A stretch of 64,000 nt of DNA from Methanobacteriota archaeon (GTDB lineage Archaea; Thermoplasmatota; Poseidoniia; Poseidoniales; Thalassarchaeaceae). The notes under the pieces are model-generated. The model had not been told where the DNA came from. It made no database searches and was given only the letters and a program-made list of their open reading frames with translations. A program made the translations under genes and the position numbers. The stretch spans positions 124,001-188,000 of the forward strand of contig JABIGF010000020.1 in the NCBI GenBank assembly GCA_018650285.1, written 5' to 3'. Below are positions 57,637 through 62,544 of the stretch, in pieces; the first letter of the stretch is position 1; each line of letters starts with the position of its first letter.

Positions 57637-59580
57637 GTGAAAGAGATGAGTCAGCGAACCCAACTCCAACAACAATTGGAGAAGAGCCGCCGTCTTCTTG
57701 CTGAGAGAAAGTCAGAAAGAGATTCAAAAGAAGGTGCAGAACAAGTTGTACATTCTTCACTTGGCCGTTTGATACGGGAAAGAAATATGCCAGCAGATAC
57801 GAATCCATTTGATGGCCCATTCCTTGCATCTACATCGGATGCGGTGCAGAAGAAAACAGGGACATTCGGGTCTATTGCTGCTGAAAGGATTCAGCGAATG
57901 AGGCAAGGTGCAGAAGCAACGGCTCCTATGATTGACCGTGATCAGGCAGGTGTCCCAATTTCTTTGGATACGCCCGCTTGGATATATTCAGAGGTTGTTG
58001 ACCCAGAGTCTAGCGATAGTGCGACCCCAGTTTGGAGAGATGTGCTTTCAAAACAGAGAGGTCATTCTCGGCCGAGCACTAGTGCTAGGGATGCGCATGC
58101 AGAACTAACCGATTCAACCCAGTCAAACGATTCATCCCAAATGGTGGCACTGGCTGAAGAAATTGCATTAGGGCGGCCAAAGTGGCCTAGTATTTTCATG
58201 CCAAACCCTCTTTATTCTTGGGGTAATTGGCAAGTTGGCCCAAATAACAGGATGGCTAGTACTGCGGCTAGAGAGATAATCACTTATCCAGCGGAGAGAG
58301 CAAATCCGCTCCTTATTTTGGGCAGTGATGGAGTTGGTAAGAGCCACTTGCTTCAAGCGTTAGGTTCCTCACTTTACACAAGATTGCCTGATAGAGAGAT
58401 TCGCATTATTGCGGGTGGTGATATCCCTGCTCAACTGCCAGATGATTGGGTGGATGCAATACAGGGATGCAGTGCGTTACTTGTGGAGGACATCCACCAG
58501 ATGGAGGGGGCGACTCAAGATGACCTTGGCAAGGTTGTAGATTATTGTTTAAATCTCGGCGTTCAAGTGGTACTAACATCTGATGGTGACTCAAATTTCT
58601 CCACTATTCTAAACAGTGCAATTAGTGGTGCTGTAGAGGTTAATATTTCCAATCCTGATGCGATGACAATTGTGTTATTTTTGCGCAATCGTGCATTAAT
58701 TCGTGGCATTTCACTCTCTGATGGACAATTGGGCGCCATTGCTGCCGCGGCTAGTGATTGGCGCAAGGCAGCATCTGGTTTTGAGCAGGTAGCTATAGCC
58801 ATTGAGGCTGGTGCTGAACCATTAGGTGTTTCAGATATTGAAACAATTCTTGGTGGTGAAGAATTACCGATGAGAGGCGATGATACTTTGGTTGCTTGGG
58901 ATAGCGAACAGACCGGTCAAAAAATTGTTCGAGAGGTGCTTGATGATGTATTACCCCGTGGCGCAATGCCAAATATTGACTTGGTTACTGAATTGGAATC
59001 AAAGGTAGATGACTATGTGGCACCTAATTTGATGCCTGAGTCTAGTCGAGATGCAGTGGATGCATTAATTGATAGACACCTTGGTAGAGAAAAGAGTGCC
59101 TTAGAAGAGGCAAGGTCTCGATTAGAAGATGAAGCAGCACCAACGAATTTAGAGGTGCCTAGAGCCGATTTACCTCATATTGACTTGATGAGTGACGGCT
59201 TCCTTGATAGGTTAGAATCAAGATTACAACGTCATCAAGATGAATTATTTTCATTACATAATGAAATGGAAACCATTGCAGGACAATTAGATGATGCCGA
59301 GCCTAAAGAATTGGTCGCAATGGCCGACAGAATGCTTGAAATTGAGCGCGAATTATCCCGCATTTCAAGATTAGATGCCGGTGAAGCACTCAAATCAAGA
59401 AAGAAGCCATCTCGTCCATACGAACCAGAAATTATTGAGGAATATGTCCCAGAAGGCGAGTGGGATATTGACGAGGAATCAATATCTGCTGATGACCTCC
59501 TTGAACCAAAAGCAGTTCTCCGTCCAATAAAGGTCTTGAAACCAATATTTTTGGATGACCGAGAAGGCGAAGAAGAATGA
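57637..59580 (+). CDS. DnaA-like AAA+ ATPase with flanking coiled coils
   Basis: 647 residues (GTG start; an ATG at 57646 is also well placed behind GGTGA). Residues ~193-390 match the bacterial initiator DnaA AAA+ core: 'YSWGNWQVGPNNRMASTAAR', Walker A 'GSDGVGKS' (229-236), Walker B 'LLVEDIHQM' (281-289), sensor 1 'VVLTSD' (311-316), and a sensor-2-like Arg376 in 'SDWRKAASGF'. The box-VII arginine finger (Arg in the 'SRF' segment of DnaA) is replaced by 'SAI'. The C-terminal DnaA-box-binding helix-turn-helix is absent; instead there is an acidic linker and a coiled coil (~535-600). The N-terminal ~180 residues begin with another coiled coil. The protein is probably cytosolic. A replication-initiation role is not implied: archaea use Orc1/Cdc6. 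Confidence 0.8.
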   Translation: MKEMSQRTQLQQQLEKSRRLLAERKSERDSKEGAEQVVHSSLGRLIRERNMPADTNPFDGPFLASTSDAVQKKTGTFGSIAAERIQRMRQGAEATAPMIDRDQAGVPISLDTPAWIYSEVVDPESSDSATPVWRDVLSKQRGHSRPSTSARDAHAELTDSTQSNDSSQMVALAEEIALGRPKWPSIFMPNPLYSWGNWQVGPNNRMASTAAREIITYPAERANPLLILGSDGVGKSHLLQALGSSLYTRLPDREIRIIAGGDIPAQLPDDWVDAIQGCSALLVEDIHQMEGATQDDLGKVVDYCLNLGVQVVLTSDGDSNFSTILNSAISGAVEVNISNPDAMTIVLFLRNRALIRGISLSDGQLGAIAAAASDWRKAASGFEQVAIAIEAGAEPLGVSDIETILGGEELPMRGDDTLVAWDSEQTGQKIVREVLDDVLPRGAMPNIDLVTELESKVDDYVAPNLMPESSRDAVDALIDRHLGREKSALEEARSRLEDEAAPTNLEVPRADLPHIDLMSDGFLDRLESRLQRHQDELFSLHNEMETIAGQLDDAEPKELVAMADRMLEIERELSRISRLDAGEALKSRKKPSRPYEPEIIEEYVPEGEWDIDEESISADDLLEPKAVLRPIKVLKPIFLDDREGEEE

Positions 59581-60177: not shown

Positions 60178-61356
60178 ATGAGTGATTCCGAAGAAGAGCC
60201 AACAATCTTTGAAGTGAAGGCGGGTCATCTTGATACAGGACTTCGTGGAATACCTGTTGGAACTTGTCGAACATCATTCGTTGACCCGATGAAAGGAGTC
60301 CACTATGTTGGTTATCCTGTTGGCGATTTAGCAGATATGGACCCAGAAGACGTCATCTTTTTGTTGTTTGAGAAAAGATTGCCAAATCGTCATGAATCTC
60401 AAAATTTCCGCAAAGATTTGGCTGAGCGTGCTGAAGAAATGCCGGCAGGTGCACTACGTGTGCTTGAGGCATTGACTCCTGGTAGCGGCCATCCAATGGA
60501 TTGGTTGGCACTTGGTATCCAAGCGCTTGGAATAGCAGAAACTACTGGTGATTTCAAAGAAGACGGTCTTAATTTAATTGCTAGAATGCCAGAACTAATG
60601 GCAACAATATTCCTACTTCGTGGTGGCCATGGAATCCCTGAATCAGGTAGTAACCCCCGTTTAGGTTTAGTTGAGAATTTTGTTCATTTAATGGATCTAG
60701 AAGAAGACAAGGCAGCCAAGATGACCAAGGTGTTGCGAACTTTCCTTGTTCTTCACATGGACCACGGTGGGGGCAATTTGTCTACCTTTTCAGGTAAATG
60801 TGTAGCTAGTGGAAAAGCCAATCTATACGCCTCAATTGCTAGTGCGATGAACGCTCTATCAGGTCCTCTTCATGGTAGAGCAAATCAGGCTTGTCTTGAA
60901 TTTGTTCAACGAATCGGCTCAAGTGACCCAGATAAAGTGGAAAAATTTGTCCGCGGAGAATTGGCAGCAAAAAGGCCGGTTTATGGATTTGGCCATGCTG
61001 TCTTGAGGGCTGAAGATCCTCGTGCAGCAGCGCAGATAATTTTGGGCGAGGAGGTATGCCCCGATGATTCAAATTTCAAGATAGTTAAGACGTTGAGAAA
61101 AGTTGCCCCAAAGGTGTTGGGTGAGAATCCAAAGATCAGCAATCCTTTCGCAAATGTTGACGTGGCATCAGGGTCATTATTGCATGCAGTTGGGTTTAGA
61201 AAACCAGAGTATTACACTACCTTCTTTGGTTGGGCAAGAGTTGCGGGAATCAGTGCCCAAATAATTGATGAGAGAAAGGCTCGTGGTGGACGTGGTGTCC
61301 CAATTTACCGCCCAAAATACATTGGTAAAGACCAACCATTACAACGATTGAATTAA
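60178..61356 (+). CDS. gltA: Citrate synthase
   Basis: 392 residues. Condenses acetyl-CoA and oxaloacetate at the entry of the TCA cycle. Catalytic residues are clear: His232 in 'GPLHGRANQ', His273 in 'VYGFGHAVLR' and Asp328 in 'NPFANVDVASG'. The 'RGGRGVPIYRPKYIG' C-terminus is conserved. The segment usually reading 'DHe.NaSTFtaRvvaST' is 'DHGGGNLSTFSGKCVASG', a small deviation. Length suits the ~370-430 residue family. A palindrome, TATA box and strong Shine-Dalgarno sit upstream, so it is probably transcribed alone. 2-Methylcitrate synthase is an alternative within the family. Confidence 0.95.
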   Translation: MSDSEEEPTIFEVKAGHLDTGLRGIPVGTCRTSFVDPMKGVHYVGYPVGDLADMDPEDVIFLLFEKRLPNRHESQNFRKDLAERAEEMPAGALRVLEALTPGSGHPMDWLALGIQALGIAETTGDFKEDGLNLIARMPELMATIFLLRGGHGIPESGSNPRLGLVENFVHLMDLEEDKAAKMTKVLRTFLVLHMDHGGGNLSTFSGKCVASGKANLYASIASAMNALSGPLHGRANQACLEFVQRIGSSDPDKVEKFVRGELAAKRPVYGFGHAVLRAEDPRAAAQIILGEEVCPDDSNFKIVKTLRKVAPKVLGENPKISNPFANVDVASGSLLHAVGFRKPEYYTTFFGWARVAGISAQIIDERKARGGRGVPIYRPKYIGKDQPLQRLN

Positions 61357-61380: not shown

Positions 61381-62439
61381 TCAATCAAAATCTAACTGGC
61401 TAGTTTTTCCAGTCCCTCGATGACCAATAATTCTTGGTACTTCCCAAGGGATTTGATTGTCATTGCTTGATGCCATCAATTCATCAATAGAGCGACGCCA
61501 CTTCCATTGTTTCCGTTGCATTGATAAGAAGTCTTTTCGATTTTCAATAGTCATTTCTCTCCAAGGAATCTGTTGACCTGCAACTATTGGTTCGCTAGCT
61601 GGCCGAGTATTACGTGGTGAACCATCTGGGAGGTGAGTAATTTCGGTTGAGGCATCATCTGTAAGTGCTGTCAAACCAGCATCAAGAACCAATCTCTCTT
61701 GAGATAGTTTGACCGGCCATACAAAGGCAGGAAAGCCCCTTCTGGTGTTTGTCAATTTTGTAAGCGCCTTTCCTTTTAATCCAACAGTTCTGCCTAGTGT
61801 CAGGTGTCTAGTATACCCTGTCAGATATTCTAGGGCACAAGGAATCATTGGCGCACCCCTATTTTGGTGAAATCTCATTGATCGTGGTAACGAATTAGCG
61901 ATAAAAGAAGGTGTAGCGACCACTTTCTTGAATTTTCCTTTACCCCATTCACGCAGATTGGGCATGAGACGAGCGCATGGGTGTTTACACCCATCTTGTT
62001 TAACAGCGGAAAGAAATTTTTTGTCAAATGCATATAGAACAGTAGTGCCATCAGGCAACTCAAATTCGGAAATAGATTCATCAACTTGACGTATCATTTT
62101 AGCCAAATATTTGACTCTTTCTTTTCCATCAGTCCAACCACCTCCTACACCACTACTCGGATGTGGAGACTTCAATTCAATACAGACTGTTTTTCCTGAT
62201 TCTTGCCAAGGGTTAACAAAATCAGGTTTTGAAAGTAGGTCATCAAATCTATCTGCACAAGTTGCTAATTCATCACTTGACAAATTTTCAACAAATTTAC
62301 CCTCTGGTGTAGTGTTGTCATGACGCAACATCAAGACATCATCGCTTGAAAGACGCAAATCAAATTCAACACCATCAAAATAGTTGATGCCTAAAGTTAG
62401 GGCTTCAAGTGAATTTTGTCTCGGTTGTATCCAACTCAA
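61381..62439 (-). CDS. Glycerophosphodiester phosphodiesterase with circularly permuted motif order
   Basis: 352 residues from a TTG start with GGAGGGG five bases upstream and an in-frame stop just before. The protein begins at the family's second motif: 'QPRQNSLEALTLGI' (normally 'PENT..A'), then 'YFDGVEFDLRL' (Glu25, Asp27), 'LRHD' (His40), 'CIELKSP' (Glu88, Lys90) and the late-barrel 'AFVWPVKLSQERLVLDAGLT'. The first-strand catalytic motif, normally at the N-terminus, occurs instead at the very end as 'PRIIGHRGTGKTSQ' (His340, Arg341). All active-site elements are therefore present but permuted. It would hydrolyse glycerophosphodiesters to glycerol phosphate. No signal peptide; probably cytosolic. 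Confidence 0.75.
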   Translation of the reverse strand: MSWIQPRQNSLEALTLGINYFDGVEFDLRLSSDDVLMLRHDNTTPEGKFVENLSSDELATCADRFDDLLSKPDFVNPWQESGKTVCIELKSPHPSSGVGGGWTDGKERVKYLAKMIRQVDESISEFELPDGTTVLYAFDKKFLSAVKQDGCKHPCARLMPNLREWGKGKFKKVVATPSFIANSLPRSMRFHQNRGAPMIPCALEYLTGYTRHLTLGRTVGLKGKALTKLTNTRRGFPAFVWPVKLSQERLVLDAGLTALTDDASTEITHLPDGSPRNTRPASEPIVAGQQIPWREMTIENRKDFLSMQRKQWKWRRSIDELMASSNDNQIPWEVPRIIGHRGTGKTSQLDFD

Positions 62440-62544
62440 GCCTTCCCCTCCTGTTCATCCGTTGTAGGCACTACACTTGAACCCAAAGGCAGGATATCTG
62501 ATGCAGGTGGAACACTCATAGCCCGTCTGTGGTTTCGGTAACAC

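Follow-up and report, generated by a model that had tools for sequence, protein, structure and literature searches.

The HRG motif of an archaeal GDPD is found at its C-terminus

Can a glycerophosphodiester phosphodiesterase (GDPD) whose chain begins past the first barrel strand carry that strand elsewhere? This question is raised by the ORF 62439-61381 on the minus strand of the stretch of DNA that we analysed (64,000 nt, hereafter the window), which encodes 352 aa from a TTG start at 62439 to a stop at 61381. A profile search of the host genome (G000, ~2.1 Mb) matched PF03009 to this gene and to no other. Conventional PF03009 GDPDs, which include GlpQ, UgpQ and LpgD and the PDB structures 1o1z, 1v8e, 2otd and 3no3, usually build their active site from two histidines and a divalent metal, and carry the HRG motif at the end of strand b1, N-terminal to the PENT motif. 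In the window protein b1 is absent from the front, and the segment lacking there, RIIGHRGTGKT, forms its C-terminus. Read from N to C, the chain presents QPRQNS (5-10), E25-F-D27, H40-D41, E88-L-K90, W241, T260-D261 and HRG (340-342), the last within R336-I-I-G-H340-R341-G342-T-G-K345, and stops after residue 352 (Table 1). The initial annotation had placed IIGHRGTGK at residues 337-345 and had described the same order of motifs (PENT-like, ExD, HD, ExK, late W, HRG), and both readings hold along the chain; the linker of ~75 residues that it described does bridge to the strand, is 74 residues long and includes a helical element (298-323) predicted with confidence. Judged by this order, the protein is filed as a permuted rather than a conventional member of PF03009.

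Table 1. Features of the permuted GDPD gene (positions in the window)
Feature	Position	Strand	Basis and remarks
Permuted GDPD gene	61381..62439	minus	352 aa, TTG start; sole PF03009 match in genome
Shine-Dalgarno-like sequence AGGAGGGG	62445..62452 (62452-62445)	minus	Read directly from sequence; ends 5 nt before TTG
Residues 5-20, QPRQNS motif and helix a1 (normally after the HRG loop)	62380..62427	minus	Alignments; model helix 11-20
Residues 23-42, strand b2 with E25 and D27, then H40-D41	62314..62373	minus	Conservation in 52 sequences; model strand 23-30
Residues 84-90, strand b3 with E88-x-K90	62170..62190	minus	E88 and K90 invariant; model strand 84-89
Residues 238-261, b7 (W241) to b8 (T260-D261)	61657..61728	minus	Aligned to conventional WTVND...ITD; model strands 238-240 and 258-261
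Residues 262-335, linker with conserved R276, P284 and W293, predicted helices 298-312 and 318-323	61435..61656	minus	Alignment and model
Residues 336-345, RIIGHRGTGK, probable relocated first barrel strand with catalytic His-Arg	61405..61434	minus	Conservation, permuted queries, model, pN/pS

The C-terminal HRG segment is conserved and under purifying selection

A search of 59 related genomes recovered the protein in 54, with all 18 genera represented and orthologues at about 31-69% identity. Among 52 aligned sequences E25, D27, H40, E88 and K90 are invariant, as are N9, D22, G23, W241, D261, R276, P284 and W293, and D41 is present in 48. The catalytic and metal residues (E, D, H, E, K) follow the conventional order and align with the same residues of conventional GDPDs. 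At the other end of the chain, R336, H340, R341, G342 and G344 are present without exception in orthologues whose sequence extends to the C-terminus (two alignments, of 52 and 32 sequences, down to ~31% identity). HRGxG, with its histidine 8-18 residues from the stop codon, is present in 64 of 66 distinct sequences, and none of the 66 has an HRG in the 60 residues ahead of the ExD motif. One of the two exceptions is cut by a contig end; the other, L053 (in G013), is missing both the HRG strand and the last part of the linker and runs into the citrate synthase gene. Its congeners keep the tail, and the absence reflects either a real loss or an assembly error.

Comparison of the window gene with five congeners gave a pN/pS of 0.075 for residues 330-346 versus 0.235-0.365 elsewhere; since pS is near saturation (about 0.65-0.72), we use only the contrast between regions. 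No other part of the gene is as constrained as the HRG segment, which is under purifying selection.

Permuted queries recover the missing part of the GDPD profile

The Pfam GDPD profile finds each of the 32 sequences in the family alignment. It matches the native window protein with 25.9-26 bits (gathering score, 23.6) from profile position 11 onwards, the HRG part being missing N-terminally, and because profile annotation returns such a weak and partial match the protein could be mistaken for a truncated or inactive enzyme. We placed the 12-residue HRG segment in front of the chain in four orthologues from both families and, as a control, placed a shuffled 12-mer in front of the same protein. 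The permuted versus shuffled scores were 32.5 vs 26.1 bits for the window protein and 60.5 vs 54.8, 49.7 vs 42.8 and 40.7 vs 32.4 bits for the others, a gain of 6-8 bits in 4/4 cases, and the match then starts at profile position 1. Similarly, the hhalign score against conventional GDPDs of the same phylum rose by about 20, from 142.5 (native) to 162.0 (permuted), and was 142.6 when the columns of the segment were shuffled. The alignment with permuted queries that the initial annotation had called for was thus positive with both methods, with no gain in the shuffled controls. When the permuted profile is aligned globally, W241 falls on the tryptophan of WTVND (b7) and D261 at the ITD (b8). Sequence resemblance to conventional GDPDs is slight in the middle of the barrel (150-235), and residues 150-334 alone gave no significant similarity to them (half-profile E 0.09).

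The structure model contains an eighth strand at the C-terminus

An AF2 model from six close rows had a pLDDT of 46.9 and was discarded. For a second input of 24 rows we added 18 conventional GDPDs encoded on viral contigs, cut so as to begin at the PENT motif, and obtained a model of moderate quality (pLDDT 68.8, pTM 0.73). Its strands 23-30, 84-89, 133-137, 156-158, 199-201, 238-240 and 258-261 were read as b2-b8, an extra short strand is located at 36-38, and an eighth strand is formed by 336-339 (RIIG), immediately before His340. The top Foldseek matches in the PDB are the GDPDs 1o1z, 1v8e, 2otd, 3no3 and 2pz0 (TMt up to 0.64), and the model points with moderate confidence to a TIM-barrel fold of the GDPD type; because the barrel came from the added rows, the GDPD-like fold of residues 5-262 cannot be counted as independent support. 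As the same rows lack b1 and the tail, strand 336-339 was not templated by them.

Strand assignment by DSSP requires hydrogen-bonded partners, and in the model those of strand 336-339 would be b8 and b2. Model confidence is about 75-82 for the linker helices 298-312 and 318-323, ~62 for residues 331-340 and ~30 beyond. The initial annotation had proposed structure prediction as a check that the C-terminal strand inserts between the first and last visible strands: residues 336-339 are indeed predicted as a strand and not as disorder, and the HRG (340-342) lies below a confidence of 50. Because confidence stays below 50 from residue 340 on, we grade the docking as supported rather than shown. 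The broader claim, that the first strand was moved to the end and closes the barrel there, agrees in its first half with the motif order, the conservation, the score gain and the predicted strand; for its second half, closure, the model provides support rather than proof.

The permuted form extends across the Poseidoniales

The family profile matched 212 of 223 genomes of the order Poseidoniales, in two families (among 244 genomes of the class), and nearly all of the matches listed span almost the full profile and run through to its end with the HRG. Orthologues with the same order of motifs, which the initial annotation had asked to be sought, are present across both families. At least three members of the order (G014, G379 and G367) gave weak matches, that in G014 being a conventional GDPD, and weak matches were also obtained in the sister lineage (f3). 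Both sister-order sequences that were inspected, L133 and L134, have their HRG at residue 10 and are normal GDPDs, and genus g7 likewise has conventional GDPDs (L060 and L061). These four proteins belong to the same family and share the catalytic motifs of the permuted form, but have the normal order, with HRG near the N-terminus and no C-terminal HRG strand. Among the other members of the phylum that were inspected, most carry the HRG conventionally at the N-terminus; L129 has HKG instead. No permuted relative was found in viral contigs by the family-profile search, nor in plasmid or phage records.

As the GDPDs of the sister order are conventional, we place the permutation on the stem of the Poseidoniales. 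A single permutation on this stem followed by vertical inheritance is the parsimonious account within this phylum, and vertical inheritance is favoured because citrate synthase adjoins the permuted GDPD gene throughout the order. Independent cases may exist in other phyla.

In the window the citrate synthase gene (60178-61356) is convergent with the GDPD gene, and a gene for an ATG22-like MFS transporter (from 62545) is divergent from it. A tiny ORF on the minus strand, MSVPPASDILPLGSSVVPTTDEQEGKA (62436-62519), overlaps the TTG start of the GDPD gene. A PLGSSVxP-like string also occurs upstream of the GDPD gene in L005 and may reflect conservation of promoter DNA in the space between the divergent genes. 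Elsewhere in the window, a 647-aa archaeal protein is encoded by 57637-59580; its residues 192-318 form an ATPase domain of the bacterial DnaA type (PF00308), and the long regions on either side of this domain gave no match.

A barrel probably closed by its last strand, and the alternatives

We conclude that the window protein is very probably a GDPD (beta/alpha)8 barrel that has undergone natural circular permutation. Both new chain ends would then lie in the ancestral b1-a1 loop, just past the catalytic HRG, with Met1 just ahead of the PENT-like motif and the chain ending 8-18 residues past the HRG histidine. A partly helical linker, of 74 residues here, would connect the region after b8, formerly the C-terminal side, to b1, and the last strand would slot between b8 and b2 of the same chain. 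This would set H340-R341 opposite E25/D27/E88 and H40 and restore a two-histidine, divalent-metal active site that may split a glycerophosphodiester into glycerol phosphate and an alcohol, with H340 activating the 2-hydroxyl, H40 acting as general acid/base and E25, D27 and E88 holding the metal. By motif, H340 and H40 would correspond to His51 and His93 of Staphylococcus aureus LpgD, which has a Mn2+ centre and works in two steps through a cyclic phosphate (PMC10404611).

Given that TTG is a weak start codon, an ordinary N-terminal HRG might be hidden by a missed N-terminus, a frameshift or an assembly artefact. However, the stop-to-stop frame comprises 357 aa and therefore leaves just 5 codons between an in-frame stop and the TTG, which is preceded by a strong Shine-Dalgarno sequence. 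None of the frames in the 600 nt before the window gene contains an HRG, and the few upstream matches in other genomes (32 orthologues scanned in all frames) are 46-156 codons away. Together with the occurrence of the same order in ~200 separate genomes and the position of HRG in the 66 sequences, these results refute a missed start or artefact, which retains a negligible probability and which the initial annotation had already excluded on the basis of the stop codon and the Shine-Dalgarno sequence.

It is also conceivable that the protein forms a domain-swapped oligomer in which a barrel is completed by the HRG strand of a neighbouring subunit, so that the chains share an active site. The linker of 74 residues is long enough for this arrangement, and conservation and the gain of the permuted profile look alike for closure in cis and in trans. 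By contrast, in one sub-lineage (L043, L052 and L057) the linker has only ~56 residues and lacks both helices, with the HRG strand still present, consistent with a short route in a single chain; moreover, in the TIM-barrel fold the chain after b8 already sits beside b1. We therefore consider a swap unlikely. The low model confidence at residues 340-352 would be compatible with a seven-stranded, inactive or repurposed GDPD whose C-terminal HRG has an unrelated role, for example in binding a different ligand. Yet all canonical catalytic residues are conserved alongside the HRG, pN/pS is lowest in the HRG segment, and this segment is exactly the piece of the profile missing at the N-terminus, all of which makes such a protein very improbable.

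Relation to known systems and possible role

Conventional and permuted GDPDs have in common the motifs HRG, PENT-like, ExD, HD, ExK, late W and TD and a predicted barrel. They differ in that the HRG strand is N-terminal in the former and C-terminal in the latter, which also has an extra linker of roughly 56-100 residues and a break within the b1-a1 loop at the active site. Catalytic TIM barrels are seldom circularly permuted in nature. The GH70 glucansucrases, which are permuted relatives of the GH13 TIM barrels, likewise are natural catalytic TIM barrels with a rotated strand order and retained catalytic motifs (PMC11046441). They are an unrelated family, however, and start at a3, whereas in the permuted GDPD only b1 appears to have moved and the break falls in the catalytic loop. 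In the non-subscription papers searched we found no report of a permuted GDPD, and related terms led to unrelated papers; what is new here is the permuted GDPD, since conventional GDPDs are already known, as are permuted TIM barrels (GH70, for example). A single strand bearing the catalytic His-Arg has probably been moved and is strongly selected across a large marine archaeal order, with conventional sister-order relatives available for comparison. Such a clean one-strand permutation alongside conventional relatives would constitute a natural experiment on how well a barrel tolerates chain ends at its active site.

PF13685, our proxy for glycerol-1-phosphate dehydrogenase, matched none of 30 genomes of the order and did match four known archaea among the controls. 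This absence is in line with a published account in which Marine Group II, to which the host genome very probably belongs, seems to be without glycerol-1-phosphate dehydrogenase but can make G3P (PMC7852524). It is plausible but speculative that the permuted GDPD supplies G3P from scavenged glycerophosphodiesters. That this order-wide, stem-fixed and previously unreported permutation, with its ends in the active-site loop, is a main supplier of G3P for unusual membrane lipids in cells with no detectable glycerol-1-phosphate dehydrogenase is possible, if rather doubtful.

Other GDPD-like proteins

A second, short GDPD-like family occurs within the archaeal family to which the window belongs (L120-L126, from G013:C26, G018:C8, G015:C11, G011:C16, G010:C50, G022:C15 and G012:C26). 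Its members are mostly about 190-208 aa long, follow the conventional order with GHRLG in place of HRG, share the C-terminus (V/M)VGRH(R/K)...LF...K/PKW(L/F)FGF and seem too short for a full eight-stranded barrel. In addition, a viral contig encodes a GDPD-like protein (L163:938-1717) whose N-terminus, without an HRG motif, reads RNPQPRGNSREAI; it is possibly an inactive or altered GDPD.
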